Of a stretch of DNA of 32,017 nt, positions 3,815-32,017 are shown piece by piece. The translations under genes and the position numbers were made by a program. The notes beneath the pieces were generated by a model. That model had not been told where the DNA came from. It worked only from the letters and a program-made list of their open reading frames with translations, and made no database searches. The first letter of the stretch is position 1. Each line of letters starts with the position of its first letter. The stretch is from NCBI GenBank assembly GCA_022072445.1, contig JAJVHV010000049.1:1-32017 (forward strand). The letters run 5' to 3'. The DNA comes from Phycisphaerae bacterium. GTDB taxonomy: Bacteria; Planctomycetota; Phycisphaerae; UBA1845; Fen-1342.

Positions 3815-3932
3815 GACACGACCTTTGGGTTGAATTGGGTTGCGATGCCCATTCGTGATCCGTAAAATCGGTCTATTGGGTCATTTCCGATCCCGAAGGA
3901 CAACACGACGCCCGCGCCCGCGGAGGCAAGCC

Positions 3933-7613: not shown

Positions 7614-7619
7614 GCGCTC

Positions 7620-12681: not shown

Positions 12682-13916
12682 AGCGCGCTGACGAGCTGAT
12701 CTGGCGAGGCGGCGTTGGTCGCCGCCTCCGCTCCCTGACGGTCGCGGCTCTGGCGGTCTGCGTGCCGGCGCTGCTCGTCGCCTTTGCGGCGGGGTGCGCC
12801 GAACGCGACAACAAGGTGCGCGAGCAGACCTCGCAAACGTGGAACGCCTACCGGGCGGCGGTGAAGTCGGAACTGGCCAGCGACGAACTCCGCAGCGGCA
12901 ACACCGAGCAGGCGCTCGAGCTGGCGCGCGAGGCGGGAGCCCTGTCGCCGGACAATCCCGCGCACGCGGCGCTGCTGGCGCGGACGTATCTGGCGCGGGC
13001 CGACTTCAGCGCGGCGCGGCGAATTCTGGAGCTGGCCGTCGCCATGGCGCCCGCCGAGGCGAATCTGCACTATCTGCTGGGCATTGTGCACGAGCGTGAT
13101 GCGCGCTGGTCGCAGGCGCGCGACTGCTACGGACGGTCAGCGGAATTGGAACCGGCCAATCTGGACTATCTCGTCGCTGCTGCCACCGCCGCGGCGCGCG
13201 TGGACGGTCCGGATGCGGCGCTCGAGTTGCTCGGAGCGCGCGGAGAGGAGTTCGACGATCAGCCGGTGTATCACGCGGCGCGGGCCGAGCTGGCGCGAGC
13301 CGCCGGGCGCCTGACGGACGCGTGTGCCGCGTATGAGCGAATGTTGGCGCTGGGGGCCGGCGATCGAACGACGCGCGAGTCGCTGGCGCTGCTCTACCAC
13401 GCGCTTGGCCGCGACGCAGACGCGCTGACGTATCTGACATCGCTGCGGCTTGACGCTCAGCAGGCCGCGCTGCCGCTGGCGCTGGCCTACGCCCGCAGCC
13501 TGCTCGCGACGCAGCAGACCATCTCGGCACTGGACTGGCTGTCCGCGATCGCGCAGCGCCACCCCGAGCACGCCGAGGTCTGGCTGCTTACGGCGCAGGC
13601 CCGCGTGGCGTGCGGCGATTGGGACCGCGCCGTCGAGGCGGGCCAGCGGGCCGCGGCACTCTCGCCGCGCTCGCCCGACGCGCACTCGCTGCTGGCGGCG
13701 CTGTATCTCTCGCGCGGAGACGTGGGCGCGGCGGCGACGGCGGCGGCGGCGGCGGTCGATTGCGATCCGCGGAACGCGGCGGCCTACAGCCTGCTCGGAC
13801 GCGCCTACGAACGGCGCGGCGATCGGAGCACCGCGCTGGAGATGTATCGCACCGCGGTGCGGCTGGCCCCGGATCAGCCGCTGGCGATCGAGTTGTTGCG
13901 CCAGGCCGAGCGCTGA
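12678..13916 (+). CDS. TPR-repeat lipoprotein, translationally coupled to the secretin
   Basis: The 412-residue protein starts in the ATGA overlap with the secretin stop. Its signal segment ends in a lipobox-like sequence (LLVAFAAGC, Cys40), so it is probably a membrane-anchored lipoprotein. The rest is about eight or nine tetratricopeptide repeats, for example NPAHAALLARTYLARADFSA, PEHAEVWLLTAQARVACGDW and NAAAYSLLGRAYERRGDRST, giving a superhelical protein-binding scaffold. TPR lipoproteins such as PilF/PilW and TadD help assemble secretins, and the coupled translation supports that role here by inference. An alanine run (near residue 360) is encoded by a GCG-repeat tract at 13729-13757, a possible slippage site. 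It ends six bases from the convergent ftsW stop, with no visible terminator between. Confidence 0.85.
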   Translation: MKRADELIWRGGVGRRLRSLTVAALAVCVPALLVAFAAGCAERDNKVREQTSQTWNAYRAAVKSELASDELRSGNTEQALELAREAGALSPDNPAHAALLARTYLARADFSAARRILELAVAMAPAEANLHYLLGIVHERDARWSQARDCYGRSAELEPANLDYLVAAATAAARVDGPDAALELLGARGEEFDDQPVYHAARAELARAAGRLTDACAAYERMLALGAGDRTTRESLALLYHALGRDADALTYLTSLRLDAQQAALPLALAYARSLLATQQTISALDWLSAIAQRHPEHAEVWLLTAQARVACGDWDRAVEAGQRAAALSPRSPDAHSLLAALYLSRGDVGAAATAAAAAVDCDPRNAAAYSLLGRAYERRGDRSTALEMYRTAVRLAPDQPLAIELLRQAER

Positions 13917-16286: not shown

Positions 16287-17669
16287 CTACCCCGATCCGC
16301 GCAGCAGCCGACCGAGCGGCTCGAGCACGCGCTCGAGCTGCACGGCGCGCGACGCCTTCAACAAGACCACGTCGCCCGGGTGAAGCTCACGCGCCAGAAG
16401 GCAGGCGCACTCCTCCGCATCGCCGCACCGCGCCACTCGCCGCGTCGCGCCATCGGGCGGCAGATCAGGCCCCATCAACGCGGCCGCCGCCCCGACCAGC
16501 ACGAATCCGCCAATGCCGCGCCGCCGGGCGTCGGCAGCGACGCGGCGATGTTGCTCGGCGCTGGCGGGTCCCAACTCGCGCATTTCACCCAACACGGCCC
16601 AGCGACGCCCGGCCGTCGGCATGGCTTCCAGAAAATCGAGGGCGGCGACGACGCTGGGCGGATTGGCATTGTACGCGTCATTGATGATTGTCACGCCACC
16701 GACTTGCACCACCTGATTTCGCATGCCCGGCAGCGCCACGCCAGCGAGCCGCGTGACGATCTCGTCGTCGCGCACGCCCAGCCAGCGCGCCACGGCGAGC
16801 GCGGCCAGCGCGTTGTCCGCGTTGTGCACGCCGCACATCGGCAGCCGGAATCGCAGCCCGTCTGAGGTTTCCGCACAGGTCCAGGGCGGCTCGACGCGTG
16901 CAGCCGCCAGCCGCAGCGACGCCCTGGCCGAACGGCCCAGCGTCAGCAGGGCAGCGGGCGCGGCGTGAAGATGCGGCTCGACTTCGGCCGAATCCAGGTT
17001 GACGAACGCCCGCCCATCGCGCCGGATCGCGGGCAGCAGCGCACACTCCTCGGCGGCCACGCCGGCGCGATCTCCCAATCCTTCGAGATGCTCCTCGCCA
17101 ATGCTCGTGATCACGCCCGCGTCGGGCGAGGTGATGGCCGCCAGCGCCGCGACCTCACCGCGCGCGTTGGTGCCGATCTCGACCACGACGTAGTCGTCGT
17201 CGCTCGACGCCGCCAGCAGCGTCAGCGGCACGCCGATCTGATTGTTGAAGCTGCCGGGAGCCGCCGTCCCGCGCCATCGCCCCGAGAGCAGGTGATGGAT
17301 CATCAGCTTGGTCGTCGTCTTGCCATTGCTGCCCGCCACCGCGATCACCTTGCCGCGAAGCGTGCGGCGATGAGACGCGGCCAGCGCCCCGAGCGCGGCG
17401 ACGGTGTCACGCACGCGGACCAGCGGCGGGCCGCCGGCCGGCGAAGTGCCGCGCCCCGTCTCGGCCAGCACAGCCGATGCACCGCGCGCCGCGGCGTCGG
17501 CCATGAAATCGTGTCCGTCGAATCGCTCGCCGCGGATCGCCACGAACAGCTCGCCCGGCACCACTCGTCGCGAATCAGTGTTCACGCCGCGAATCGGCAC
17601 GTCGACGCGCGGCGAGTCGGTCGCGCCCGCGACGATTGCGAGCAGGTCTGAAAGGGCGAGATTCAGCAT
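16287..17669 (-). CDS. murF: MurF, UDP-MurNAc-tripeptide:D-Ala-D-Ala ligase
   Basis: The 460-residue cytoplasmic Mur ligase adds D-Ala-D-Ala to UDP-MurNAc-tripeptide with ATP. The N-terminal domain shows DSRRVVPGELFVAIRGERFDGHDF. The ATP loop AVAGSNGKTTTK lies at about 110-121 (Lys117). The central domain has VVEIGTNARGEVAALAAITSPD and the C-terminal domain has INDAYNANPPSVVAALDFLE and WAVLGEMRELG. All are standard MurF landmarks and the length is normal. The start ATG at 17669 has only a weak ribosome-binding site. A 78-base gap separates it from murE, longer than other junctions in the operon but without an obvious promoter. Confidence 0.97.
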   Translation of the reverse strand: MLNLALSDLLAIVAGATDSPRVDVPIRGVNTDSRRVVPGELFVAIRGERFDGHDFMADAAARGASAVLAETGRGTSPAGGPPLVRVRDTVAALGALAASHRRTLRGKVIAVAGSNGKTTTKLMIHHLLSGRWRGTAAPGSFNNQIGVPLTLLAASSDDDYVVVEIGTNARGEVAALAAITSPDAGVITSIGEEHLEGLGDRAGVAAEECALLPAIRRDGRAFVNLDSAEVEPHLHAAPAALLTLGRSARASLRLAAARVEPPWTCAETSDGLRFRLPMCGVHNADNALAALAVARWLGVRDDEIVTRLAGVALPGMRNQVVQVGGVTIINDAYNANPPSVVAALDFLEAMPTAGRRWAVLGEMRELGPASAEQHRRVAADARRRGIGGFVLVGAAAALMGPDLPPDGATRRVARCGDAEECACLLARELHPGDVVLLKASRAVQLERVLEPLGRLLRGSG

Positions 17670-17747
17670 GATCCAGGACGTGCCGCGGGCAGACCGGCCG
17701 CGCTCCGACGAGTGTTCGGCGGCGCGAGTGGCGCGCCACCGGGGCGG

Positions 17748-19271
17748 TCAACCGGCGGAGGCATCGCCCGCCCTTCTGCCCGCCAGCGCGTCGATCGCCA
17801 CCTCGACGTCGTCGAAGGGCACGCGCTGCGACCCGAGTATCTGGTAGTTCTCATGCCCCTTGCCGGCGATCAGCACGACGTCGCCCGGAGCGGCGCGGTC
17901 GATGGCGAGTTGAATCGCGCGGCGCCGGTCGGCCTCGACGGCGACGCATGAGCGCTTCGACGGGTCAATCCCGCTCAAGATCTCCTCAATGATGGCGGAG
18001 GGCGGCTCCGAGCGCGGATTGTCGCTGGTGACAATGACCTCGTCGGCCAGCTCGACGGCGACGCGGCCCATCCGCGGCCGCTTGGTGCGATCGCGGTCGC
18101 CTCCGCAGCCAAAGAGCACCAGCAGCTTCCGCGGTGTGACTTTTCGCAGCACATGGAGCACGTTGGCCAGGGCGTCATCCGTGTGAGCGTAGTCGACGAA
18201 CACATCAAAGCCGCTCTTGCTCGGCACGCGCTGCAGACGCCCCGGTATGTTCCGCAGCGACGACAGGCCCGCCGCGATCGCCTCGGTCGAATAGCCCAGA
18301 GCCAGCGCCAGGCCTGCGGCGGCAGCCGCGTTGTAGACGTTGTGCCGCCCCACCACCGCGTTCTCCAGCGCCAGATCACGCCCCGCGATCCGCAGCACGT
18401 AGTGCGTGCCCTTGATCGTCTCACGCGTCACGCGCGCCGTGATGTCCGCCTCCCTCAGCAGCGAATACGTCATCACCCGCGCTGCGCACCGCCGCACCAT
18501 GTACGCCTGATGTTCGTCGTCGCGATTCACGACCGCGACCGCCGACGCACCGAGCCCGGCAAACAGCCGCTCCTTGGCATCGCGATAGGCCGCAAGCGTC
18601 TGATGGTAGTCCAGATGATCGCCCGTCAGATTCGTGAACGCCGCCGCCGAAAAACTCAGGCCGTCGGTCCGCCGCTGATCCAGCGCGTGGCTCGAAACTT
18701 CCATCACCGCGGCCGCGGCACCCGCGTCGGCGCACTCCCGGACGTACGCGGCCAGCTCCAGCGGCCCGGGCGTGGTCATGTTCGCCGCGACCACGCGCCC
18801 GCACAGGTCGTAATACACCGTCCCCAGCATGCCGCAGCGTTGCCCGGCGGCCCGGACGATAGCCGTCGTCATGAACGCCGTCGTGCTTTTGCCGTTGGTT
18901 CCGGTCACGCCGGCGACGCGCAGCGTGCGGCCGACGCGCTGCTCGAGACCGTACCAACGGGCCGCCAGCGTCGCCAGCGCGGCACGCGCGTCGCTGACGC
19001 AGATGCAACGCTCGTCCTGCTGGGCGAAGCGCTCTCCCAGCACGACGGCCGCGCCGCGCGCCAGTGCGTCACGCACGAAGTCGCCGCCGTCGGCGCGCGT
19101 TCCGCGCAGCGCCACGAAGATGCCCCCAGGCGTCACGCGGCGCGAATCGTCGTACACCCCCGTCGCGATCTGCGCAGCGCGACCCGCGAGCTGCGCCGCG
19201 CCGACGATGCCCTCCAGCAGCGTCCCGAGCGTTCGCGTTTCAGTTCTCGGCGTCATCGTCTCCAGCAACAT
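17748..19271 (-). CDS. murE: MurE, UDP-MurNAc-dipeptide:meso-diaminopimelate ligase
   Basis: The cytoplasmic Mur ligase adds the third amino acid of the stem peptide. The start is taken at ATG 19271 (about 507 residues) because GGAG lies just upstream; a GTG at 19286 is also in frame. Landmarks: DDSRRVTPGGIFVALRGTRADG; ATP loop GVTGTNGKSTT (Lys128); ANMTTPGPLELA; SSHALDQRR; FTNLTGDHLDYH; and FVDYAHTDDALANVL. The substrate-determining motif reads DNPRSEPP (from residue 417), the form found in meso-diaminopimelate-adding enzymes rather than lysine-adding ones. The sequence therefore predicts a Gram-negative-type cross-linked peptidoglycan in this organism. Confidence 0.96.
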   Translation of the reverse strand: MLLETMTPRTETRTLGTLLEGIVGAAQLAGRAAQIATGVYDDSRRVTPGGIFVALRGTRADGGDFVRDALARGAAVVLGERFAQQDERCICVSDARAALATLAARWYGLEQRVGRTLRVAGVTGTNGKSTTAFMTTAIVRAAGQRCGMLGTVYYDLCGRVVAANMTTPGPLELAAYVRECADAGAAAAVMEVSSHALDQRRTDGLSFSAAAFTNLTGDHLDYHQTLAAYRDAKERLFAGLGASAVAVVNRDDEHQAYMVRRCAARVMTYSLLREADITARVTRETIKGTHYVLRIAGRDLALENAVVGRHNVYNAAAAAGLALALGYSTEAIAAGLSSLRNIPGRLQRVPSKSGFDVFVDYAHTDDALANVLHVLRKVTPRKLLVLFGCGGDRDRTKRPRMGRVAVELADEVIVTSDNPRSEPPSAIIEEILSGIDPSKRSCVAVEADRRRAIQLAIDRAAPGDVVLIAGKGHENYQILGSQRVPFDDVEVAIDALAGRRAGDASAG

Positions 19272-19329
19272 TCCGCTCCGTCCCACTCGTCAAACGCTGA
19301 TCCAAGGAAATCCCGCGAAGCAACGGTCC

Positions 19330-21129
19330 TTAGTCGGCATCGGCCACGCCCGCGCCGCGCGACCGCCGGTCGGGCATCGACTTCTGCGGCGGCACACGCA
19401 TGTAGTTGAGCGCGTCGGCGACGATTGCCGCCGCGGCGGGCGCGGCGACGGTTCCGCCGTAGTACGCCCGCTGCCCGGGTTTGAAGATCGAGACGATCGC
19501 CGCGACGCGCGGCTCGTCCGACGGTGCGCCGGCCAGAAACGAACCCATGTACTTCCCGGGCAGGTAGCCATGGCCGCCGGGCCGGGCGATCTGCGCCGTT
19601 CCGGTCTTGCCGAAGAGCTGATAATCGGGAATGGCCGCCTTCGTGCCCGTGCCGGTCAGCACCACGTCGACCAGCGGCCCGAGGCGGATGCTGTCGGCGG
19701 TGCGCGTGTCGAGCACGCGCCGGATGGCCACTGGGCGCGAGTCGTCGCGGAGCAGCGTGCCGTCCGCGCCGACGATGCCCCGCACAATTCGCGGCCGGTA
19801 GAGAATTCCGCCGTTGCAGAACACGCTGAAGGCCGCCAGCGCCTGAAGCGGCGTGATGGCGATCTCCTGGCCGATTGGAATCGACTGGGTCGAGTAACCG
19901 GTCCAGCGCGAAAAGTCCTGCACGAGTCCTTCGTGCTCACCGGGCAGATCGATGCCCGTCAGGTCCCCGAAGCCGAACCGCCGCACGTAGCGGTTCAACC
20001 GCTCGTTCCCGACGCGTTCGCCGATCATCCCCATGCCGATGTTGCTCGACTTGCTGACGACCTCTTCGAGCAGCAGCGTCGAGTAGGTGTGCGTGTCGTG
20101 AATTGTGCGGCGGCCCCAGTTGCGCGTCGGTCCGTTGATCACGAATCGCTCGCCATACCGCGCCAGGCCGTCCTCAAGCGCGCAGGAGACTACGAAGGGC
20201 TTGAAGAGGCTACCCGGTTCGTACGCGCCCGAGATCGCGCGGTTGAAGAGCCGCTCCTCGGCGGCCTTGTGCTCCGCGGGACGCAGGCCGGCCGGAATCG
20301 GGTCGGCGGGATCGAAATCGGGATACGTCGCCATCGCCAGCACTTCGCCCGACTGCGGATCGAGCACGACCGCCGTGGCCCACTCGGCGGCGTAGGTCTG
20401 CGCGGCGGCGGTGAGGTGCTTTTCTGTGCACTCCTGAATGTAGGCGTCGATCGTGAGCACGACGCTCGCGCCGTCGCGCGGGTCGATGAAGTCCTCGGGC
20501 CGGGCGCTGACGCGCTGCCGGCGCGTGTTCACCACCAGCGTGCGGCTGCCGTCGACGCCGCGCAGGAATGAGTCGTAGGTCAGCTCCACTCCGGCCAGCG
20601 CGCGGTTGTCGGCGCTCAGGAATCCCAGCACGTGCGACGCCAGCCGGCCGTTGAGGTACTTGCGCTGCGCCTCGTAGCGGACCACCAGCCCCCCAAGCTC
20701 TTTGGCCTCGCGAACTTCGGAGAACCCCGCCAGCTCCTCGTCGCTGATCTGCCGCTTGATCCAGACGAAGTGCCGGTCGGCTGCGAGGGCCTCCCGCAGC
20801 GACTGCTCGACTTCCGCCGCGTTCAGCTTCAGCACTGGCGCGATGCTGTACGCCGCGAAGCGGATATCCGGAATCAGAAACGGATCGGCGAAGATCGACG
20901 GCCGCCGGATCGAACCGGCCAGCACCCTGCCGCGCGCGTCGAGGATGTCGCCGCGCTGCGCCGGGATCGGCATGGTGGCTGATTGCTGGCTGTCGGCCCT
21001 GGCCCGCAGCTCGGCCCCCTGCGTGGTCTCGATGACCACCAGCCGGCCGGCGCCGATCGCCAGCGCCAGCGAGGCGAGCACGAACGGGAACAGCCCGGTT
21101 CGAACGGTTGATCCGCTACTCGTGTTCAT
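19330..21129 (-). CDS. ftsI: FtsI (PBP3-type), septal peptidoglycan transpeptidase
   Basis: Class B penicillin-binding protein of about 599 residues. The start is taken at ATG 21129, preceded by GGAGG nine bases upstream; an upstream extension to 21210 is low-complexity and runs through a hairpin repeat. One membrane anchor follows (LFPFVLASLALAIGAGRLVV), then the dimerisation domain (PAQRGDILDARGRVLAGS) and the transpeptidase domain. Active-site motifs are intact: SLFK in EPGSLFKPF (Ser307, Lys310), SSN in SKSSNIGMG (361-363) and KTG in FGKTGTAQ (508-510). No PASTA repeats are present. It cross-links septal glycan made by FtsW and acts in the periplasm. It lies upstream of murE as in the canonical dcw order. 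Confidence 0.95.
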   Translation of the reverse strand: MNTSSGSTVRTGLFPFVLASLALAIGAGRLVVIETTQGAELRARADSQQSATMPIPAQRGDILDARGRVLAGSIRRPSIFADPFLIPDIRFAAYSIAPVLKLNAAEVEQSLREALAADRHFVWIKRQISDEELAGFSEVREAKELGGLVVRYEAQRKYLNGRLASHVLGFLSADNRALAGVELTYDSFLRGVDGSRTLVVNTRRQRVSARPEDFIDPRDGASVVLTIDAYIQECTEKHLTAAAQTYAAEWATAVVLDPQSGEVLAMATYPDFDPADPIPAGLRPAEHKAAEERLFNRAISGAYEPGSLFKPFVVSCALEDGLARYGERFVINGPTRNWGRRTIHDTHTYSTLLLEEVVSKSSNIGMGMIGERVGNERLNRYVRRFGFGDLTGIDLPGEHEGLVQDFSRWTGYSTQSIPIGQEIAITPLQALAAFSVFCNGGILYRPRIVRGIVGADGTLLRDDSRPVAIRRVLDTRTADSIRLGPLVDVVLTGTGTKAAIPDYQLFGKTGTAQIARPGGHGYLPGKYMGSFLAGAPSDEPRVAAIVSIFKPGQRAYYGGTVAAPAAAAIVADALNYMRVPPQKSMPDRRSRGAGVADAD

Positions 21130-21160
21130 TCCGCCCGACCTCCGTGCCCGGCGCGGCGCA

Positions 21161-21208
21161 CAGCCGCCCGCGGCTGCGCCGTCATGGACAGCAGCCGCCC
21201 GCGGCTGC
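21161..21208. repeat. Tandem pair of identical hairpins upstream of ftsI
   Basis: CAGCCG-cccg-CGGCTG occurs at 21161-21176 and, extended by one pair (GCAGCCG...CGGCTGC), at 21191-21208. The two copies are 31 bases apart in the 129-base gap between the ftsL-like gene and ftsI. They may form RNA hairpins in the operon transcript between these genes, or be a duplicated interspersed repeat. Confidence 0.55.
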
Positions 21209-21258
21209 ACTCCATTCTCGACAAACGCCTGCGGCGACCACGACGCTCGGCCCGCGCG

Positions 21259-21621
21259 TCAGCCACCCGGCTTGCGCGCCGCCGGTTGCTTGCCGCTTCG
21301 GCCACGCTTGTCGCCGGAGCGTCCGCGGTCGCGCTCCTTCGGCTCAACGGCCTTGGACGGGCCGGCCGGGCTCGCCGACGGCCTGGACGCGGCCGACGGC
21401 GGGGCCAGCAGATCCTTGACGCGGTCGCGGATTTGCGCCGGATTCTTCAGTCGCGCCAGCTCAAGCCGGCTCTCGCGCATTCGCAGGCGCAGCGACTCCT
21501 CCTGGCGATCCAGCTCGGACATCTGGAATTGCAGCCGGGCCACTTCGCCGCGCAGCAGCGCGGTCGTCAACATCACCGCCAGCGTGGCGACCAGCAGGAC
21601 AATGCCGCGTCCGAGTGTCAT
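21259..21621 (-). CDS. FtsL/DivIC-like septum protein
   Basis: The 120-residue protein has one N-terminal membrane segment (GIVLLVATLAVMLTTALL), a short coiled coil (VARLQFQMSELDRQEESLRLRMRESRLEL broken over four heptads) and NPAQIRDRVKDLL, which matches the end of the FtsL/DivIC fold. A basic, Pro/Lys/Arg-rich tail follows. FtsL-type proteins bridge FtsQ/B and the FtsWI synthase at the division site. Sequence conservation in this family is weak, and the call rests on topology plus position directly between rsmH and ftsI, where ftsL belongs. The charged tail is longer than usual and has no recognised counterpart. FtsL versus DivIC/FtsB cannot be separated from sequence alone. Confidence 0.75.
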   Translation of the reverse strand: MTLGRGIVLLVATLAVMLTTALLRGEVARLQFQMSELDRQEESLRLRMRESRLELARLKNPAQIRDRVKDLLAPPSAASRPSASPAGPSKAVEPKERDRGRSGDKRGRSGKQPAARKPGG

Positions 21622-21656
21622 CCGGTTCTCTCGCGCCGCTCGCGCCGGGCTCGACG

Positions 21657-22769
21657 CTACGCCGGCGGCAACTTGATCCGCCGGCCGGCCTCCACCGGCC
21701 GCCGCGCGTTCAGTTCATTCAGCTCCGCGATCTCGCGCCAGCGGCGATCGTCCCGCAAGTACCGCCGCGCGATGCTCCGCAGCGAGTCGCTGGGTTGAAT
21801 CGTATACCAGCGCGCTGGTTTTGTCGTCGCGCGCGTGTCCTCCGTCCGCCGCACCGCGCCCGGCCGCCCGCCGCGGGTCACCGACGACTTGCCACTCGCG
21901 TCGCGGCCGCGCTCGGCGGCGGCAACTTTTGCGCTCTTCTTCGCGCCACGGCTCTCCATCGCCTCTTTCTTCTCGCCTGCCGCTGGCCCCGGCGTTGGCT
22001 TGCCAGCCGCTTCGGCGGCGCGCGGCACTGTTCTTGACGGAGACGCCGTACCCGCGATTGCGCCCGCCTCGAGTCGCGGGATCGTCAACCGCTGCCCGAC
22101 GCGAATTCTGTCGGCGCGGCCCTTGAGCTGCGGATTGGCGGCCAGAAGCAGCTTCAACGCGCCGGGGTCGTCCCGCTTCCACTCGCTGCGGGCGATCTTG
22201 CTGAGCGTGTCACCTTTGACAACAACGTGAGCACGCTCCGCGCCCTGCGACGGGACGACCGCATCGGTCGCGTTGAGGCCACTTGGCGTTTCGTTCATCG
22301 GCGCTGCCGGCGCAGCCACGGCCGTCAGCACAACGTCGTCGGTTGCCGGCGCCGCGTCGCGCGGCGCTTCGTTGCGATCCGGCAGGATTCCATCCAGGGG
22401 CGGAACGACCGGCTCGGCCTGCATCGCCAGCGGCCCCAGCGCGGTTGAGGGCATCGCGATGCGCGGCGACGCGTCCTCCATTTCCGGCAGCGGCGCGACG
22501 GCGCTGGGCCGCTCGAATGGAACCGAGGCCAGCGCCGCGCCCGGGGCCGACTCGGCCGCGGCGCGCATCATCACACCCGGCACCGCCATCGGCAGTTCGG
22601 CCGTCGGCCGGGCCATTCCGTTGAGCAGCCATGACATCGTGCCGATGAAACTCAGGCTCACCAGCGACGCCACCTTCACGTTGGGTCCCATTGCTCGCAT
22701 CCTTGCTCTCTCGGCCCGGGCCACCCTGATCCTGGCGACATTCCGCACCGTGCCGTGGGCCGCTCTCAT
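21657..22769 (-). CDS. Membrane-anchored protein with two LysM domains in the dcw operon
   Basis: The 370-residue protein begins in an ATGA overlap with the rsmH stop. A hydrophobic segment near residues 30-52 (VASLVSLSFIGTMSWLL) is the likely membrane anchor or signal, followed by a long Ala/Pro-rich linker. LysM domain 1 spans about 182-235 (HVVVKGDTLSKIARSEW ... IRVGQRLTIP). A second charged linker follows. LysM domain 2 is at the C-terminus (WYTIQPSDSLRSIARRYL ... VEAGRRIKLPP). LysM modules bind N-acetylglucosamine in peptidoglycan, so a periplasmic wall-binding role is expected; no catalytic domain is visible. LysM genes are not part of the textbook dcw cluster. The linker lengths and coupling to rsmH suggest a division-linked structural protein. 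Confidence 0.85.
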   Translation of the reverse strand: MRAAHGTVRNVARIRVARAERARMRAMGPNVKVASLVSLSFIGTMSWLLNGMARPTAELPMAVPGVMMRAAAESAPGAALASVPFERPSAVAPLPEMEDASPRIAMPSTALGPLAMQAEPVVPPLDGILPDRNEAPRDAAPATDDVVLTAVAAPAAPMNETPSGLNATDAVVPSQGAERAHVVVKGDTLSKIARSEWKRDDPGALKLLLAANPQLKGRADRIRVGQRLTIPRLEAGAIAGTASPSRTVPRAAEAAGKPTPGPAAGEKKEAMESRGAKKSAKVAAAERGRDASGKSSVTRGGRPGAVRRTEDTRATTKPARWYTIQPSDSLRSIARRYLRDDRRWREIAELNELNARRPVEAGRRIKLPPA

Positions 22770-23728
22770 GCCACGCGCCGCGCGGCGCGCAGCTTCGCGC
22801 TGCGACTGCGGCGGTTTCCGCGGCGCTCCTCTTCATCCGGGCCGACGGGCGACTTGGTCAGAATCTCGACCTCGCCGGCCTTCTTGCGCTCCAGTAGAAA
22901 GTGCTTGACGATTCCATCTTCGAGACTGTGAAAGCTGATCACCACGAGCCGTCCGCCGGGGCGTAGAAACGGTAGAGCACGCTCCAGGAATGCCCTCAGA
23001 TTGTCCAGCTCGCAGTTCACAGCGATGCGCAGGGCCTGGAAAATGCGCGTCGCCGCATGCACGCGCACCGCGTGTTTCTCCATGCCGCCGTAGACGCCCT
23101 CGGCCGCCAGGGCGAGCAGGCGCGTGGTGGTCAGCCGCGACTCCCGCCGCAATTCGCAGATGCGCTTCGCGATCTTGCGGCTCAGCGTCTCCTGCCCGAA
23201 GTCGTAGAACAGGTCCGACAGCTCGCGCTCGCTCAGGCTGTTGACCAGATCGGCGGCGGTCGTCTTCTGCCGCTGGTCGAAACGCATGTCGAGCGGACCG
23301 TCGACGTCGAAGCTGAAGCCGCGTTCGGCCTTCGCGAGCTGCGCGGAGTTCACGCCCAGGTCCAGCAACATCGCGTCAACCTGCCCGATGCCGAGGCGCT
23401 CCAGCAGCGCCGGAAACTCGGCGTAGTTCCATTGCTCCAGGTGAATCACTGGGTCGCTCATCCCCGCCAGGCGCCGGCGGGCACCGTCGAGCATCGCGCC
23501 ATCCACATCCAGTCCGACATACAAACCACCAGGCGCCAGCCGCGGCGCGATCGCCGCAGCGTGCCCGCCTAAACCGACGGTGCCATCGAGCACGATCTGG
23601 CCCGCGGCGGGCGCGAGATACTCCGTGACGCGCGACACCAGGACCGGCTCATGCCCAGACAGCTCGACGTCCACAACCCACCGCCGCGCTTCGTGCGCGC
23701 ACCGCTCTCGTCCCAGATTACACGACAC
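22766..23728 (-). CDS. rsmH: RsmH (MraW), 16S rRNA m4C1402 methyltransferase
   Basis: The protein carries all main RsmH motifs: SGHEPVLVSRVTEYL, the SAM-binding LDGTVGLGGHAAAI, LLDLGVNSAQL, GFSFDVDGPLDMRFD, DLVNSLSERELSDLFYDFGQE, ATRIFQALRIAVNCELDNL, VISFHSLEDGIVKHF and the basic end NRRSRSAKLRAARR. It methylates N4 of C1402 in 16S rRNA and is the usual second gene of dcw clusters. The GTG at 23728 gives 320 residues but has no clear ribosome-binding site; homologues begin close to the SGHEPVL motif, so an in-frame GTG about 19 codons later (VDVELSGHEP) is also plausible. A 277-base gap with hairpins separates it from mraZ. Confidence 0.95.
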   Translation of the reverse strand: MSCNLGRERCAHEARRWVVDVELSGHEPVLVSRVTEYLAPAAGQIVLDGTVGLGGHAAAIAPRLAPGGLYVGLDVDGAMLDGARRRLAGMSDPVIHLEQWNYAEFPALLERLGIGQVDAMLLDLGVNSAQLAKAERGFSFDVDGPLDMRFDQRQKTTAADLVNSLSERELSDLFYDFGQETLSRKIAKRICELRRESRLTTTRLLALAAEGVYGGMEKHAVRVHAATRIFQALRIAVNCELDNLRAFLERALPFLRPGGRLVVISFHSLEDGIVKHFLLERKKAGEVEILTKSPVGPDEEERRGNRRSRSAKLRAARRVA

Positions 23729-23887
23729 GGGCCGACATGCGAGATGATCGCCGTGACCTCGGCGCCACGGACGGGTTGATTGAATGCGGGCCGGCGCTTA
23801 TCATCCTGACTTGCGTCGGCCGGATCAGTCTCAAGCGGCCTTCCCTGGCCGCTCGCGCCGCGCGGATGCGTCATCGCTCATGAACGC

Positions 23888-23958
23888 AGGGCCTGGCGGG
23901 CCCTGTCCGCGGGTCGATTCACGGGTAGGCGGAGTGCGGCACATGACCGGACTCCGCC
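23888..23958. repeat. Two hairpins in the mraZ-rsmH gap
   Basis: The 277-base gap 23729-24005 holds no convincing gene. AGGGCC-tggcg-GGCCCT lies at 23888-23904, and GGCGGAGT-(15 bases)-ACTCCGCC at 23928-23958. Neither is followed by a T-run on the minus strand, so they do not look like intrinsic terminators. They may be an interspersed palindromic element, or an attenuator-like structure between mraZ and rsmH. Confidence 0.45.
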
Positions 23959-24005
23959 AGCCCGCCTCGCTCGGCACCCGCTCATCCGGGCGCCCTCGAA
24001 ACCCT

Positions 24006-24506
24006 CTATCCTGACTCAGCCGCGGCACGAATCGCGTCCCGCGACTGCTCCTGCTCAGCCATCACACGCCAGGCCGCGGCGCGCTCCGCCGGATAGTCTG
24101 GCCACTTCCGCGTAATGAACTCGCGATATGCTTCGCGCGGCCACAGTTCCAGATGATCCTGCACGCCGATCAGCGCGACATCCTTCCCAATCCCGGCGCG
24201 CTCCAGCAACCACTCCGGGATTAGGATCCGGCCCTCTTTGTCCGGATCGAGCAGCACAGTCTGCGACCATTCGAACTGCCACCACTCGAACGCGGCATCC
24301 GGCAGTCGATCGGGGGCCGTCGGAATCGGACGAAGCTTCTCGAAGTACCGGTCCGGATAAATCGCAAGCGTTCCCAGCCGTCTCCCGGGTAGCACAAAAA
24401 ACGCTCGACCGTCGATGTCCGGATTCAGCTTCGCGCGAACGCCGTACGGTATCGACAGGCGGAACTTCGCATCGATCGTGAATTCGTAAGCGCCGCTGAA
24501 GAGCAT
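24006..24506 (-). CDS. mraZ: MraZ, AbrB-fold transcriptional regulator of the dcw operon
   Basis: The 166-residue protein has the duplicated MraZ layout: MLFSGAYEFTIDAKFRLSIP (domain 1) and LLDPDKEGRILIPEWLLERAGIGKDVALIGVQDHLELW (domain 2, in two parts). MraZ forms ring-shaped oligomers that bind TGGGN-type repeats upstream of its own gene and regulate the dcw operon; it acts in the nucleoid. It is the first gene of the operon here, under a good promoter. The start ATG at 24506 has no strong ribosome-binding site. A C-terminal tail of about 20 residues (AEQEQSRDAIRAAAESG) is slightly longer than in short homologues. Confidence 0.95.
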   Translation of the reverse strand: MLFSGAYEFTIDAKFRLSIPYGVRAKLNPDIDGRAFFVLPGRRLGTLAIYPDRYFEKLRPIPTAPDRLPDAAFEWWQFEWSQTVLLDPDKEGRILIPEWLLERAGIGKDVALIGVQDHLELWPREAYREFITRKWPDYPAERAAAWRVMAEQEQSRDAIRAAAESG

Positions 24507-25357: not shown

Positions 25358-25858
25358 TCAGTACCGATAAGGGCTGCCGCGGCCGCGGGGGCGCAACTGG
25401 AGCATCTGCGCGGCAAGAGTGAAGAGCAGCGCGCCGAGGGCAGCACCGCCCAGCCCGAGCGTGAAGCCGCTCCAGGGGTGGGCCACGCCCCAGAGCGTCG
25501 CATTGAGGGCCACGAGCGTCGAAGCGGCGAGACTGGCAGCCAGCGCGGCGAGAACGGCGATGACGAGCTGCGCCGACCAGGCGCTGCCGTTGGTCCGGGC
25601 ACACAGCCAGGTGACCAGCCAGGCGGCCAGGCCGAGCGCCACGGCGCGCGTTCCGACCGGATCGGACGAGCACATGTCCTGAGCCAGGCCGATCAGCCAG
25701 CCGGCGATGGGGGCTTCGCGCGGGGGCGAGAGAAACCCCCAAAGCAGCGCGGTGAGCAGGAAAAGATCGAGCGCCGATAGCACCCGCAGGCGCGCGATGA
25801 GCGCGGTCTGCACCACGGCGACGACGACGATCATCGCAACGAAGATGCCCCAGCGCAT
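25358..25858 (-). CDS. MreD-like rod-shape-determining membrane protein
   Basis: The 166-residue protein is almost entirely membrane: five hydrophobic segments, beginning WGIFVAMIVVVAVVQTAL. It has the MreD-type sequence LDLFLLTALLWGFLSPP and the hallmark WLIGLAQDMCSSDPVGTRAVALGLAAWLV (glycine-Leu-x-Gln-Asp motif). MreD works with MreB and MreC in the elongation machinery of the cell wall. Neither mreB nor mreC is next to it here, which is unusual, and the family is poorly conserved, so the name is given as MreD-like. The ATG at 25858 is four bases from the stop of the upstream lipoprotein gene, so the two are probably coupled. The basic end (RPRGRGSPYRY) faces the cytoplasm if topology is standard. 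Confidence 0.7.
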   Translation of the reverse strand: MRWGIFVAMIVVVAVVQTALIARLRVLSALDLFLLTALLWGFLSPPREAPIAGWLIGLAQDMCSSDPVGTRAVALGLAAWLVTWLCARTNGSAWSAQLVIAVLAALAASLAASTLVALNATLWGVAHPWSGFTLGLGGAALGALLFTLAAQMLQLRPRGRGSPYRY

Positions 25859-25862
25859 GCGA

Positions 25863-26498
25863 TCAACTGGCCTCGGGCAGTTCGCGGCCGAAAGCCGGCG
25901 CGGGCACGCGGCGGCGCAGCGGCGAACCCTTGACGACGCGACCGTCGCCGCGCTGATAGCTGAAGTTGATCTCGACGTGCTTTCCGCAGACTTTGGCCTC
26001 CTTGGGCCAGTTGAGCATGAAGCCGTAGGAGTATCCGCCGGCGGCGAGCTTGGTGATGCGGAATCCGGTGGCGTCCTGCTGGTTGAACGTCCAACGATGG
26101 ACGAGCTTGCGCGTCAACTGGCCCTTCTCGTCGCGCTCGATGACGTGCATGGTGGCTTCGAACGCGCCGGTGCCGAAAGCGCCCTTGCCGCTCGCGGCCG
26201 AGACGGCGTAGACGCGGACCTTGAAGCCGACCGGCGTCGAGGCGTCGAACAACCAGGGGACCGGCTGCCAGAACTGGATCAGCTCGACGATGTCGTCGCG
26301 GGCGGCGATCTTGGCGGCGTCAATGGCCGGTACGGGCTTGGCGGTGGCGTTATCCGCCCCGACGCTATACGAAACTGGTTTGTGCTGCTGCGGCCACTGG
26401 CAGCCTGCAACCGAGAGCGCCAGCAGCGCGGCGGCGACGCGAGTTCGCGCGAACCCCGGCCGATGCACGACGCGGGAATGTTCAGACAGGCGTTTCAT
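25863..26498 (-). CDS. Putative lipoprotein of unknown function
   Basis: The 211-residue protein has a signal segment (TRVAAALLALSVAGC) with a lipobox VAGC, Cys33, so it is probably a lipoprotein of the inner or outer membrane. The mature part reads as a beta-rich domain (PVGFKVRVYAVSAASGKGAF, ATMHVIERDEKGQL, HRWTFNQQDATGFRITKLA, YSYGFMLNWPKEAKVCGKHV, EINFSYQRGDGRVV) of about 150 residues. I do not recognise a named family; the layout resembles small planctomycete lipoproteins found with secretion or pilus genes. It lies between the giant secretin (171 bases upstream) and the mreD-like gene (four bases downstream), which makes a link to the secretin (pilotin-like) or to envelope maintenance possible but unproven. 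Confidence 0.72.
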   Translation of the reverse strand: MKRLSEHSRVVHRPGFARTRVAAALLALSVAGCQWPQQHKPVSYSVGADNATAKPVPAIDAAKIAARDDIVELIQFWQPVPWLFDASTPVGFKVRVYAVSAASGKGAFGTGAFEATMHVIERDEKGQLTRKLVHRWTFNQQDATGFRITKLAAGGYSYGFMLNWPKEAKVCGKHVEINFSYQRGDGRVVKGSPLRRRVPAPAFGRELPEAS

Positions 26499-26669: not shown

Positions 26670-29600
26670 TTACTCGATCCGGCCGGGAATCGGCAGATCG
26701 TAGGAATCGGCGTCGGCCGGGCCGCGCGACGAACCGAGCCGGGCGGGCACGGGCGGTCCGTACTCGTCTTCCTCCGGCTTGAGCGTGTCCTTCTCAAGCG
26801 GCACGGTCTCGCCTTCGGCCGGCTCGAGCGGCACGCCCTCGGCGCCGTCGTGCATCGTCTCGGTTTCGCGGCGGAGCTTGTTCATGAGCGGGCTGCCGAG
26901 CACCTCCTGATCAAGCAGGCCGCTCTCGTCGCGCGAGTGGGTCGACAGGTCGCGGAAGTCCTCGACCGTGCGGACGACCCGCGGCGTCAGGACGATCAGC
27001 AGCTCGGTCTTCTGGTTGTTGTAGGTGCTGAAGCGGAAGAGCTCGCCCAAGAGCGGGATGTCGCCCATGAGCGGCACCTTCTGCTCGGTGGTCGACTCCC
27101 TATTGGTGATCAGGCCGCCCAGCACGATCGTCTCGCTGTCCATGACGGTGACGGTGGTATTGGCTTCGCGGTTGATGGTGATCGGCTGCTCGACGCCCGG
27201 GGCGATGGTGACGTTGGAGTCCGCCACTTCCGAGATCACCTGCGAAATCTCCATCCGCACGTAGCCGTCCGGGTTGATCTGCGGCGTCACGGTCAGCTCG
27301 ATGCCGACTTTTTCGCGCGTAATGTTGCTCTGCACGTTTCCGCCGGTGGTCTGCGACGTGCCGGAGACGAACGGAATTTCGCGGCTGACGTTGAAGGTGG
27401 CTTCCTGGCCGTGCATGGCCATGATCATCGGCCGGCTGAGGACCTTGAGGTTGCTCTCGCTCTGAAGCGTGTGGATCAGGAAGTTGAAGTCGGCGCCCGT
27501 GACGGTGAAGGTGAATCCGCCGAGGCCGGCGCCGACGGCGCCGACGTCGGTTCCGCCGACGTAGTCATAGGTCGTCGTGTCGCTCGGGCCGGCCTTGGTG
27601 AATTGCAGGTCCTGAAAGGCGAATTCGACGCCCAGCTCGAGCGAATTGTCGAGCGTGACTTCGATGATCAGGACCTGGATCATGACCTGCGGCGGCGGCT
27701 GGTCGAGCTCCTTGACGATGTCGAGCACTGAGCTTTCGAACTGCGGATCGTAGCTGACGACCAGTACGTTGGCATCTTCGTTGGCGATGGCGATGATCTC
27801 GCGTTCCTGCTTTTTCTGGTTCGAGAGCTCCTCGCCGATGTCCTGGAGGCGGTCGCGTTCGGCGTCGCTGAAGGCCTTGAGCGAATCGGCCAGGCTCTTG
27901 GCTTCGTTGTTGCGCGGTTGGTAGACGAACGTCTTGCGCTCCTTGATCTCCTGCGTATCGAGCTGGAGCACCAGTTCTTCGACCAGGTCGAGATAGCCCT
28001 TCGTACCGGCGGCGACGACCGAGTTCGTACGGACGTCGGTGGTGAACATGAGCTGTTGGCGGCCGCCTTCGGAGCTGACGCCTTCGAGCACGAGCTGCCG
28101 CTCCTGGCCGTTCTGGCCGGTGGTGTTGGAGACGGTGCGGGTCGTGCCCGTCCCCGTGCCGCCCTGCGAGCTGAAGAGCGCCTCGAGCGTTTTGACCATC
28201 TCCTCGGCGTCGGAGTTGCGTAGCGGGAAAATGCGGACCTTGGCGGCATCGGGCGGAACGTCGACCGCGGCGACAAGCGACTCCATCAGCGCCATGCTTT
28301 CGGGCGAGGCGGTCACGACCAGCGAATTCGTACGGACGTCGCTGATGATTCGAATCTCGGAGCGCAGACCCTTGAGCGTCTCGACGCCGGCGTCGGGGTG
28401 CTGCACCTGGTAGATCAGCAGTACCTGGTTGGCACCTTCCTGTGCGGCGCCGCCGGAGCTGCGCGTTCCACCACCCTGGCTACTGCCGACCTGTCCGCCG
28501 CGGCCCTCGAGGATGGCGTTCAGCAGTTCGCCGGCGTCTTCGGCGTCGGCCTGCTTAAGCTTGAAGATGCGTACGACGGCGCCGCCGGTAGGATCGACGG
28601 TTTCCATGCGCTGCACCATCGTCTCGACTTCCTTGACGAGGGCGGGCGGGCCGATGGCGACGACTGAGTTCGTGGCGGGGTCGAAGGTAACGGTGAGGTC
28701 GGTGGCTCCGGTTCCGCCGCCCTGCCCGCCGCCGGTGCTCTTGTACATGTCCTGCAGGATCTTGGAGACGTCTTCGGAAGCGTTCCGCCGCAGCGGCAGG
28801 ATGGTGAGCATGCGGCCGACCTCGCTGGGGCGATCGAGCAGTTCGATCCAGCGTTCGACCATCTGCATGTCTTCCTTGGAGGCGGCGAGCAGGAGGTTGT
28901 TGGAGAGCGGGTCGGCGGCGATGTGAATGGGTGTTCCGCTGAGCTTGGCGTCGCCGCCGCCGCTGCCCTGCTGGCTCTTCTGGATCAGCTCGGTGAGCAG
29001 CGCGGCGATATTGGTGGCGCTGTTGAGCTTGACGGCGCGGACGCGGAATTCGACAGTGGGGTCGAACGCGCGGTCGAGCTGATCGACCAGGTCGTTGGCC
29101 TGGCGGATGTAGTCGCGCGTGCCGGTCATGACGACGGAGTTACTGCGCGGATCGGCGATGACATTCAGCACGTCCTTCTGCTCGGGGTTGGTCTCCTTGG
29201 TGGCGGCAGCCTTTTTCTCGAAGACCTCCTGGATGATGGCCTGAATCTTGGCCGAGTCGGCAAACTGGAGCTGGCGATATTGCGAGTCGACCGTGCCATA
29301 GGCTTCGGCGCCGTCGAGCTGCAGGGCCAGGTCTTCGACCATCTTGTACGTGTCGGGGTGTCCCATGACGATCAGCATGTTGGCGCGGTCGTCGGGGATG
29401 ATGATGGCGCCCTCGCGCTCCGGGTTCTTCTGGGCCTTGCCCAGGGCGGTCTGGCGCTCCTTGAGCAGGTCCTGGAGCTTCTTGCCCAGCGTGCTGGCGG
29501 GCGAATTCTTCAACTGGATCAGATGCGTCTCCATGGCCAGGCTGGTGCCGGGTTTGTCGACCTCGGCGATCAGGCCGGCGGTCAGCAGGATGGCATCCTT

Positions 29601-32017
29601 GCGGCCGACGACGAAGAGCGTGTTGCTGCGCGAGTCCTGGGCGATGTAGATCGGGAAAGGCAGCCCCTTGCCGGTGATGCCGGCGGGGATCGGGGGCAGC
29701 ACGTCCTTGGCGAACGACTTCGCGTCGCCGTCGGACGGGCGGACGAGCGCCGCCTTGCCTTCGGTGAACAGCTTCTGAAGCATTTCGCCCACGTCGACCA
29801 CGTCGGCGTGCTTGAGGGCGAACGACTTGATCTCGACGTCGGCGCCGGCGGGCAGCGCGTCGAACAGGCCGACGATTTCGGTCAGCGGGTCCTTGTTCGA
29901 GCGCGAGGTGTACACGATCAGCGAGTTCGTACCCTTGTCGGAGACGATGCGAATCGGCTTCTCGAGATCGAGCTCGGGCAGCACGCGCCCGTCGACCGTC
30001 GTGATCCGCAGGCGGCGCACGAACGGCTTGCCGGGCTTGGTCGGCTCGGCGGCGGCGCCCTCCTGAGCGGCCTGCTGCTCGGCGTTGATCATGTCGGTCA
30101 GAGCCTTGGCGACCAGGTCGGAATTCGCGTTCTTCAGGTTGATCCAGAGCATCTCGCCGACGGTGTACGCCGAGCCGCCGTCGTCGGGCTTGATCTCGAC
30201 GTCGACGGACTGAATCAGCCGCTCGATCTCCTCGACGTCCTTGGGGGTCCCGATGACCAGAATGCTGTTCGAGCGGTCCTCGACCTGCACCGAGGCTTGC
30301 GCATCGGCGGGCACCTCGCGCAACTGGTTCAACTTCTGCAGCGTGGGCGCCACGATGCGGGCGGCGTCGGCGGCGCGGATGTGCGTCAGGCCGATCAGGC
30401 GGAATTGCGTGTCGCCGGTGTCCACGTCGAGCTGATCGATGAGCGTCTCGATCGTCGCCATGATCTTGTCGGAAGCGGAGACGATCAGCGAGTTGCTGCG
30501 GGCTTCGGCGCTGATCGCGAAGCGGTCGGCGGGGCCAGGCTGATCGGTGCGGATTTCGATCAGGCGCTGCACCTGCTCGGTGATGGCCGGCGCCAGCAAC
30601 GCCGCCTTGGCGTGCTTGAGCGTGAAGACGGCGAACTGCGCCGGCCCGGTGGCGGCTTCCATCGTCCGGGCGATCTGCTGAAGGAATTCGAGGTCGCGCT
30701 CGTCGCCATAGATGATGACCTGGTCGCTGCCGATGGGCGTGACCTGGACCTGTCCGCGGAGCGTACCGGTGACGCCGGCGGGGAGCAGGACGGCGTCGCC
30801 GGCGGCGGGTTGGGTAGCCTGCTCGTCCGGGGCCGGTGGGCGGCTGGTCGAGGAATCCGACGGTATCGGAACGACACGCTCCTGGCGCGACGACGGCCGG
30901 GCAGCCGGCGGCGGCGCATGCTCCTGCGTGGCGCCACGGACACCCGCGTTTTCGACCGGCGTTTCCTGGGTCGGATTCGACTGCTCGGCAGTTTCGGCTG
31001 AATCGTCGACGCCGGCCGAAGCCTGGTCGGACGCGTCGCTCTCAGCATCTTCCGGCGCGGCCGCAATGCTGTTGTCGGCTGCGGGCTCGTCGGCCAGTTC
31101 GGGCGCGGCGACGTCCGCGTCCGGCCGAGATTCGGCCTCGGTCTCGGGCGGGCCGCCGACGGCTTCAGCGCGGCGCAGGGGTGAATCGGAGTAAGCGACG
31201 AGACGGATCGCGTCGTAGTTCACGTCGTCGGGCAGTTCGGGCTGTTCTGTTTCAGCCAGCGCCGCGAGGCGCGAGAACATCTGGCCCGGCGGCAGCGCGC
31301 GACCGGCCGCAGGCGCGCCGATTGAGAGCGCGGCGGGACGACGGGCAGGCGAGCGCGGGCGTAGGGCGGCCGGCGGCGGCGACTTCGGCGCGGCCTTGCC
31401 GTCGCTGACGATCAGATCGCGCCAGCTTTTCGCCCGGTCATCGCTGGTCGGCGCCGCCGCCAGTGCCGAATCCGGCGAATCCGCGCGAGCATCGGCCGGG
31501 GTCGCGACGTCGGCCACAGCACCGACGGCGACAGGGGTATTCAACTGGGTGGAGATGTCGTCCGGCGGGACCATGCGATTAAGAGCGGCGAGCACGGCGC
31601 CGACGTCGTTCGACAACTCGTGCGACGAAAGCGACGGGGTCGCCTGGCCGCTGGCGACCGATTCGCCGATCGCGGCGCGCGCTTCAGCCGCGGCCATCGA
31701 CACCGGCCGGGCAAAGCGGCTGAGGGCTTCGATGAGCGCATCGCGCTCGCTGGCCGCGAGGGGTGCGACGAGCGCGGCGTGAACGGCGTGCGACTCGGTC
31801 GCGGGCATGGCCGGCGCCAGCGCCGCCTGGTTCGCCAGCGCCGCGCTGATCGACTGAGTGAGCAGGCAGACGCCGATGAAAGCCGCGGCTGGCCGCGGTG
31901 CGACGTGGTCGGTGCGGGGCGCGGCGGTGGCGCTCGGTTGCCAGAGGGCGGCGCCGCGCGGGGGCTGCGTCGGGGGCGTGCGGCGGCGCGTTCCGCCGGT
32001 GGGCGGCTGGGCTGCGC
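26670..32017 (-). CDS. Giant secretin with about eleven repeated N-domains (5' end beyond the window)
   Basis: At least 1781 residues. The frame stays open from ATG 31808 to the right edge with no ATG, GTG or TTG codon, and that stretch encodes a signal-like segment (AAAFIGVCLLTQSISAALA, 31889-31833), so the true start lies outside. A disordered Ala/Pro/acid-rich region of about 320 residues follows. Then come about eleven secretin-N-type modules, each ending in a [D/E]-x-R-x-N-S-[LV]-x-V strand-turn; the signatures are SNSLIV, SNSILV, TNSLIV, SNTLFV, ANMLIV, SNSVVM, SNNLLL, TNSVVA, TNSLVV, TNSVVA and ANVLVV. Canonical GspD has N0 plus three. Some modules carry Gly-rich insertions (GGGQGGGTG; GSSQGGGTRSSGG). 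The core begins PPPQVMIQVLIIEVTLDN and carries the hallmark VPLMGDIPLLGELFR. Secretins form outer-membrane channels; the long stack predicts an extended periplasmic tube. No other secretion genes are within the window. Confidence 0.93.
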   Translation of the reverse strand, partial: AAQPPTGGTRRRTPPTQPPRGAALWQPSATAAPRTDHVAPRPAAAFIGVCLLTQSISAALANQAALAPAMPATESHAVHAALVAPLAASERDALIEALSRFARPVSMAAAEARAAIGESVASGQATPSLSSHELSNDVGAVLAALNRMVPPDDISTQLNTPVAVGAVADVATPADARADSPDSALAAAPTSDDRAKSWRDLIVSDGKAAPKSPPPAALRPRSPARRPAALSIGAPAAGRALPPGQMFSRLAALAETEQPELPDDVNYDAIRLVAYSDSPLRRAEAVGGPPETEAESRPDADVAAPELADEPAADNSIAAAPEDAESDASDQASAGVDDSAETAEQSNPTQETPVENAGVRGATQEHAPPPAARPSSRQERVVPIPSDSSTSRPPAPDEQATQPAAGDAVLLPAGVTGTLRGQVQVTPIGSDQVIIYGDERDLEFLQQIARTMEAATGPAQFAVFTLKHAKAALLAPAITEQVQRLIEIRTDQPGPADRFAISAEARSNSLIVSASDKIMATIETLIDQLDVDTGDTQFRLIGLTHIRAADAARIVAPTLQKLNQLREVPADAQASVQVEDRSNSILVIGTPKDVEEIERLIQSVDVEIKPDDGGSAYTVGEMLWINLKNANSDLVAKALTDMINAEQQAAQEGAAAEPTKPGKPFVRRLRITTVDGRVLPELDLEKPIRIVSDKGTNSLIVYTSRSNKDPLTEIVGLFDALPAGADVEIKSFALKHADVVDVGEMLQKLFTEGKAALVRPSDGDAKSFAKDVLPPIPAGITGKGLPFPIYIAQDSRSNTLFVVGRKDAILLTAGLIAEVDKPGTSLAMETHLIQLKNSPASTLGKKLQDLLKERQTALGKAQKNPEREGAIIIPDDRANMLIVMGHPDTYKMVEDLALQLDGAEAYGTVDSQYRQLQFADSAKIQAIIQEVFEKKAAATKETNPEQKDVLNVIADPRSNSVVMTGTRDYIRQANDLVDQLDRAFDPTVEFRVRAVKLNSATNIAALLTELIQKSQQGSGGGDAKLSGTPIHIAADPLSNNLLLAASKEDMQMVERWIELLDRPSEVGRMLTILPLRRNASEDVSKILQDMYKSTGGGQGGGTGATDLTVTFDPATNSVVAIGPPALVKEVETMVQRMETVDPTGGAVVRIFKLKQADAEDAGELLNAILEGRGGQVGSSQGGGTRSSGGAAQEGANQVLLIYQVQHPDAGVETLKGLRSEIRIISDVRTNSLVVTASPESMALMESLVAAVDVPPDAAKVRIFPLRNSDAEEMVKTLEALFSSQGGTGTGTTRTVSNTTGQNGQERQLVLEGVSSEGGRQQLMFTTDVRTNSVVAAGTKGYLDLVEELVLQLDTQEIKERKTFVYQPRNNEAKSLADSLKAFSDAERDRLQDIGEELSNQKKQEREIIAIANEDANVLVVSYDPQFESSVLDIVKELDQPPPQVMIQVLIIEVTLDNSLELGVEFAFQDLQFTKAGPSDTTTYDYVGGTDVGAVGAGLGGFTFTVTGADFNFLIHTLQSESNLKVLSRPMIMAMHGQEATFNVSREIPFVSGTSQTTGGNVQSNITREKVGIELTVTPQINPDGYVRMEISQVISEVADSNVTIAPGVEQPITINREANTTVTVMDSETIVLGGLITNRESTTEQKVPLMGDIPLLGELFRFSTYNNQKTELLIVLTPRVVRTVEDFRDLSTHSRDESGLLDQEVLGSPLMNKLRRETETMHDGAEGVPLEPAEGETVPLEKDTLKPEEDEYGPPVPARLGSSRGPADADSYDLPIPGRIE

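Follow-up and report, generated by a model that had tools for sequence, protein, structure and literature searches.

Background

Known secretins carry few N-domains and in GspD, the type II secretin of E. coli and Vibrio that is named PulD in Klebsiella and XcpQ in Pseudomonas, three of these are of the N1 type (N1-N3). Here we describe a giant secretin whose gene runs off the end of a contig from a Phycisphaerae bacterium (assembly GCA_022072445.1, contig JAJVHV010000049.1), the whole of which, 32017 bases, was analysed and is referred to as the window. The protein shares with GspD the secretin core, the N1-type fold, an N0-type first domain and, in relatives, the place in the gsp operon; it differs in the number of its N-modules and in long linkers between blocks of modules, and the array is sometimes split over two or three genes. 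We consider it probable that the gene is gspD and encodes a type II secretin with a hugely lengthened periplasmic part, whose modules would build a tube of stacked rings.

The nearest solved precedent is PilQ of Thermus thermophilus, whose extra N-domains form six stacked rings seen by cryo-electron microscopy that span most of a wide periplasm, and passages of that report call it one of the largest systems characterised (PMC5745081). The giant secretin has several times as many modules as this PilQ and goes with type II components. Planctomycetota are described, in excerpts of a survey of huge proteins, as rich in proteins of more than 5000 aa, and that paper nowhere uses the word secretin in its main text (PMC11573180). 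Among the open-access papers listed by our searches we found no report of giant or many-N-domain secretins in planctomycetes; a description elsewhere is possible.

Results and discussion

An array of N-modules over two contigs

The window is the entire contig C39 of its genome (G000; genomes, contigs and loci are cited by our own G, C and L handles). A Pfam search of the giant secretin frame found 11 separate stretches of Secretin_N (PF03958, E 1.2e-120 for the whole protein), well above four N-type domains, and a single stretch of the Secretin core behind them (PF00263, E 6.9e-50, 169.4 bits against a cut-off of 27.5). The original prediction, made from the letters of the window, of about eleven N-modules ahead of a normal secretin core therefore holds for the window. 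As a total, however, eleven understates the array, because the window frame ends at the contig end. A search of the same genome that used the N-terminal region of the relative L040 as query recovered a 3204-codon open frame on contig C28 (49 % identity, E 3.4e-214) which reaches that contig's end at 58896. This front part has a signal-peptide-like start (such starts were judged by eye throughout), a low-complexity stretch, an N0-like domain and then 28 N-modules by a custom profile hidden Markov model (HMM) or 20 by Pfam PF03958, and it ends in the same kind of linker, rich in arginine, glycine and proline (R/G/P-rich), as that in which the window frame begins. Together the two parts hold at least 39 modules by the custom HMM and 31 by Pfam, which along with up to 62 in a relative sets the giant apart from GspD. 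Their open frames add up to 4985 codons, the first 80 or so preceding the likely start (by eye).

The custom HMM was derived from the 11 modules of the window and then iterated on relatives, two runs differing by at most one module. In 72 controls made by reversing or shuffling 18 proteins it found no domains, and chance or composition as the source of the domain count is thereby ruled out. An artefact of open frames in GC-rich DNA was likewise rejected because the protein sequence is conserved, the third blocks of 17 relatives sharing 41-55 % identity with the window protein. Long open frames do lie opposite the giant gene (4207 codons in L042, 3224 in L046 and 692 in the window at 28923-31001 (+)), probably as a codon-bias effect of GC-rich DNA.

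Complete frames in the family

All 27 genomes of the family matched a 350-residue query from the core, at E 3e-95 or better in 26 of them (the window's own included) and by weak matches only in G008. At 17 loci compared in detail, giving 18 sequences with the window, 11 frames are bounded on both sides within their contig and have a signal-peptide-like start; these measure 4144-4916 codons from stop to stop. Each of these complete members is a single frame with 35-48 modules by the custom HMM; Pfam Secretin_N gave 36 and 33 stretches in two single-frame relatives. The remaining 15 of 26 family frames were left out of the complete set, 12 being open into a contig end and three broken; one of the three (G025) lacks the N-terminal domain and starts 122 bases from the end of its contig. 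Taking a block as a run of modules with no gap above 100 aa, the last block has exactly 11 modules in 18 of 18 sequences.

Residues 1-409 of the window protein correspond to the linker ahead of this third block, first R/G/P-rich, then with a short hydrophobic stretch and then acidic and of low complexity, and the break of contig C39 falls inside the R/G/P-rich linker between the second and third blocks. That the window holds a complete protein was judged unlikely, family frames being far longer and a matching front part lying on C28. In one version of that idea the gene would start inside the window near 31900 with a signal peptide of its own, as an eleven-N-domain secretin to which the C28 frame would be a separate partner gene. 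Residues 45-62 do form a hydrophobic stretch that resembles a signal peptide and related families have split genes with signal-peptide-like starts, but similar hydrophobic stretches lie mid-frame in several fused relatives, the 11 complete family members are all single-frame, and each of the two contigs breaks off inside this R/G/P-rich linker, its frame open to the end. We therefore regard a start inside the window as very improbable.

Fold of the modules

AlphaFold2 modelled window residues 410-1440 (from 18 sequences) as a beta-beta-alpha half unit followed by eleven beta-alpha-beta-beta-alpha units; short additional helices lie in the loops of some units. Residues 336-956 of the C28 part were also modelled. 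Against the GspD structure 5w68 the window model gave Z 10.3 with a root mean square deviation (rmsd) of 1.5 over 64 aligned residues, and C28 modules gave Z 10.4 with rmsd 0.9 over 65; against XcpQ (5mp2) the window model gave Z 11.1 over 129 residues, with rmsd 12.8 since two domains are covered whose placement differs. Among the matches listed, window modules 1, 2, 4-8, 10 and 11 were matched to secretin N-domains. The first domain of the C28 part matched the N0 domain of GspD from enterotoxigenic E. coli (4jtm, Z 10.0, rmsd 1.9, 78 aligned). In the models the repeats thus fold as N-modules, as had been proposed, for most of the eleven. The mean predicted local distance difference test score was 68 for the window model and 71 for the C28 model. 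The predicted template modelling scores are low (0.24 and 0.38), so the relative placement of the modules is not given by the models, which weighs against the stacked-ring part of our reading.

The same lack of confident placement is consistent with a giant GspD in which only the last few modules form rings, the others being flexible tethers, strung like beads, that extend to the inner membrane or attach to peptidoglycan or to cargo. In favour of such tethers the linker between the second and third blocks is 184-539 aa long across 14 relatives, and in some relatives blocks are separate polypeptides. Within blocks, on the other hand, the gaps between modules have medians of just 6-8 residues (6 aa for the eleven window modules) and the modules keep their order and identity. 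In the 61-module G070 protein 45 modules follow consecutively without a gap above 40 aa, of which it has one, while G058 and G187 have three gaps each of just 78-87 aa, about one module long, which may be undetected modules. We consider the tether model unlikely.

Gene context and probable type II identity

GspK marks type II systems. In one relative (G007) the genes upstream of the giant gene match, by Pfam, T2SSG, T2SSJ (below cut-off), T2SSK and a PilM-type L gene, and K- and L-like genes occupy the same place in G028, G048, G058 and G187 by BLAST similarity; by these matches the giant gene closes a type II secretion operon in five relatives. In the window's own genome a type II cluster lies on contig C19 with F, G, K and L genes and with J and M below cut-off.

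The best-scoring family model is that of GspD, above those of PilQ and of type III secretion. On the window protein the GspD equivalog model TIGR02517 reaches 507 bits against a cut-off of 351, but this score is inflated because it is summed over six repeated stretches, a point that counts against the type II reading. TIGR02515 (PilQ) gives 244.5 (cut-off 284.35) on the window protein and 366.7 on the relative L051, repeats again inflating the score, and TIGR02516 (SctC) gives 211.8 (cut-off 238.45) and 302.6 respectively, type III neighbour genes not having been searched for. A function in a type IV pilus or uptake machine, in place of protein secretion, would agree with the PilM-like L gene, with the scores of the PilQ model on these proteins and with the crateriform structures of planctomycetes, which in passages of PMC5394234 carry pilus-like fibres and link both membranes. 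The GspG- and GspK-type components encoded in the operon and the rank of the GspD model speak against it, and we think such a function quite improbable.

Behind the giant gene a lipoprotein-like gene, whose product has a hydrophobic stretch ending in a small residue and cysteine (by eye), is present in seven of seven genomes. Five of the seven are similar by BLAST, those of G058 and G187 agree in position and lipobox-like start only, and in G026 the sequence sits inside a longer frame. The predicted 211-aa lipoprotein of the window is a candidate pilotin. At the position of the MreD-like gene that follows, G007 has a gene that is also below the Pfam MreD cut-off and is BLAST-similar to a gene in G026; the window gene had no BLAST match among the compared neighbour genes.

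Distribution across the class and phylum

The nearest named relatives are, apart from two titled simply 'bacterium', metagenome-assembled genomes of Phycisphaerae or other Planctomycetota, in agreement with the planctomycete origin assumed beforehand. Named loci are 80 of 214 relatives and come from an alignment-pattern scan of genome contigs. A pattern scan from the single window protein had given 47 pattern matches and no relative, where the alignment-based scan succeeded; beyond Planctomycetota coverage was by the pattern-based scan.

In a sample of 298 genomes of the class 169 matched at our threshold of E 1e-60 or better. Frames of 3000 codons or more occur in at least 70 of the 298 and frames of 4000 or more in at least 51. 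The longest frame among the matches listed has 6169 codons (G070, L158 943-19449 (-)) and lies on a 29.7-kb metagenome contig, for which the assembly of repeats is uncertain. Its modules number 61 by the custom HMM and 62 by Pfam, the latter summed from two halves (30+32), which may have counted a module at the cut twice, and PF21305 (GspD N0) passes in it at 31.5 bits against a cut-off of 27. Other complete giants counted in the class have 28-62 modules, those outside the family going down to 28 (L123, 3306 codons; 26 by Pfam).

Outside the class, in a phylum sample of 393 genomes of which 257 matched at 1e-40, no frame above 2331 codons was found among the matches listed. Twelve secretins from there (L174-L182, L184, L186, L187) have 2-11 modules by the custom HMM, which was trained on giants and may undercount in them, and two of the 12 frames are cut by the end of the examined stretch. 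Among other Planctomycetota the mid-sized secretins (11 proteins with 5-11 modules in 1257-2208 aa, two being cut) share the core family of the giant and have fewer modules, subject to the same undercount. One locus (L087, core 51 % identical) in which a single frame fuses the RNA polymerase beta subunit to modules of the family looks like a faulty assembly and was excluded from the ranges; in this near relative (CP070685.1; L087 5621-11323 (+)) RNA polymerase beta subunit domains are followed by the last three N-modules and the secretin core.

Split arrays and order of the modules

In G048 the array lies over two adjacent genes, one of 2792 aa with 24 modules and a core-bearing one of 1748 aa with 14, and in G057 (L161 2118-14660 (+)) over three, of 1290, 1254 and 1605 aa with 8, 14 and 14 modules, each of which has a signal-peptide-like start. 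Such starts are also present in the downstream pieces of split arrays that were inspected. An adjacent coreless front gene was seen in 8 of the 80 named loci (L089, L091, L093, L098, L099, L100, L106, L108), in all eight reaching the edge of the examined stretch, and L120 and L139 are split at a different place. The split genes look like they part at block boundaries; L137 appears to be frameshifted, and in L125 frames overlap. Because the array is split over adjacent genes in related families, blocks can, to judge by the gene sequences, exist as separate chains.

Module identity is conserved along the array. Each of the 11 window modules has its counterpart, in order, among modules 27-37 of G026 and matches it better than any paralogue in its own protein, and 24 of the 28 modules on C28 match G026 in ascending order, with 9, 12, 14 and 15 matching their own paralogues best. 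Between families the pattern is mixed: best matches fall in the protein of another family, and not in the window's own, for 7 of the 11 window modules in the case of G028 and 4 of the 11 in that of G058, and 40 of 48 G187 modules are best matched in G058, mostly in order, though the families differ. Multi-module units are duplicated in G070 within modules 20-43 and again within 3-9.

A probable lengthened GspD

The case for a giant GspD draws on observed sequence, domain fold, module order, distribution and gene context. In the mechanism that we propose 12-15 chains would assemble as in other secretins, with the secretin core as the outer-membrane gate, the modules as stacked rings of a periplasmic tube that exceeds those of GspD and PilQ many times in length, and N0 at the far end meeting the inner-membrane platform. 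As flexible joints the long linkers between blocks would let the machine bridge a wide or variable periplasm. The array probably grew by duplication of multi-module units, each module afterwards keeping its own identity. If one ring adds 2-3 nm, 39 rings would reach about 80-120 nm.

Further observations have to be set against this reading. Rings along the whole length are our extrapolation from the modules. Window modules 3 and 9 had no separate fold match among the matches listed, and PF21305 was not listed by Pfam for the C28 part, where N0 is assigned by fold match only. The C28 and C39 parts are counted as two separate frames with a gap between them. Two family frames are broken: in G017 the ninth module of the last block contains an in-frame stop, and in G010 the frame stops inside the core (paired by coordinates with the named loci L072 and L096). 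In G000 the giant gene lies away from the type II genes on C19, and G026 has no type II genes adjoining it among its Pfam and BLAST neighbours. In the class sample 129 of 298 genomes are without a match at E 1e-60, and some matched members have short secretins (781 aa in G163 and 685 aa in G095, with three modules each).

Features of the locus and other genes

The features of the locus are collected in Table 1. Downstream of the giant gene and on the same strand, a cluster of division and cell-wall genes at 16287-24506 (-) encodes MraZ, MraW, a LysM protein, a penicillin-binding transpeptidase and two Mur ligases. At 10879-12681 (+) lies the gene of a second, ordinary-sized secretin (600 aa), with a Secretin core, one Secretin_N, and STN and GspD N0 below cut-off, directly followed by the gene of a TPR protein (12678-13916 (+)). 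The region 3840-9071 (+) encodes a PSCyt1/PSCyt2/PSD1 protein and then a DUF1501 protein. Elsewhere in the genome another secretin-core match lies in a 1005-codon frame on contig C26 at 1311-1847 (L004/L008).

Table 1 Giant secretin gene, its parts and its downstream neighbours in the window
Feature	Position	Strand	Remarks
Giant secretin gene, C-terminal part (5' end missing)	26670..32015	-	1781 aa; stop codon 26670-26672; open at contig end; remainder on contig C28
Linker between second and third domain blocks	30789..32015	-	By-eye comparison with the equivalent gap in 14 relatives
Half N-module (beta-beta-alpha), start of third block	30642..30788	-	Comparison of relatives and AlphaFold2
Eleven N1-type (Secretin_N) modules	27696..30638	-	Residues 460-1440; Pfam, custom HMM, AlphaFold2, GspD/XcpQ fold matches for most
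Secretin core domain	26970..27467	-	PF00263 (Pfam); GspD model TIGR02517
C-terminal tail beyond the secretin core	26673..26969	-	Frame and Pfam boundaries
Predicted lipoprotein, downstream neighbour of the secretin gene	25863..26498	-	211 aa; VAGC lipobox; conserved position
Small MreD-like membrane protein, after the lipoprotein gene	25358..25858	-	Pfam MreD below cut-off

Implications for the planctomycete envelope

In Planctopirus, of another planctomycete class, the periplasm is variable and at times greatly enlarged, and crateriform structures appear to connect both membranes, according to passages of PMC5394234. By analogy, an array whose length suits a wide periplasm would fit this published cell biology of other planctomycetes. 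A bolder picture, which we put forward tentatively and short of calling it likely, is that the dozens of N-rings form one jointed tube of about 100 nm from gate to platform across the Phycisphaerae periplasm, that the number of rings, set by module duplication, serves as an evolvable ruler, and that split-gene tubes are built from two or three polypeptides end to end. With a lineage of about 28-62 N-domains one can test how the length of a secretin is matched to the width of the envelope, how a channel of this length is put together and how type II secretion operates across it. Such a lineage would also supply a molecular candidate for the membrane-linking structures of planctomycetes, and the giant tube could be the molecular basis of such surface structures.
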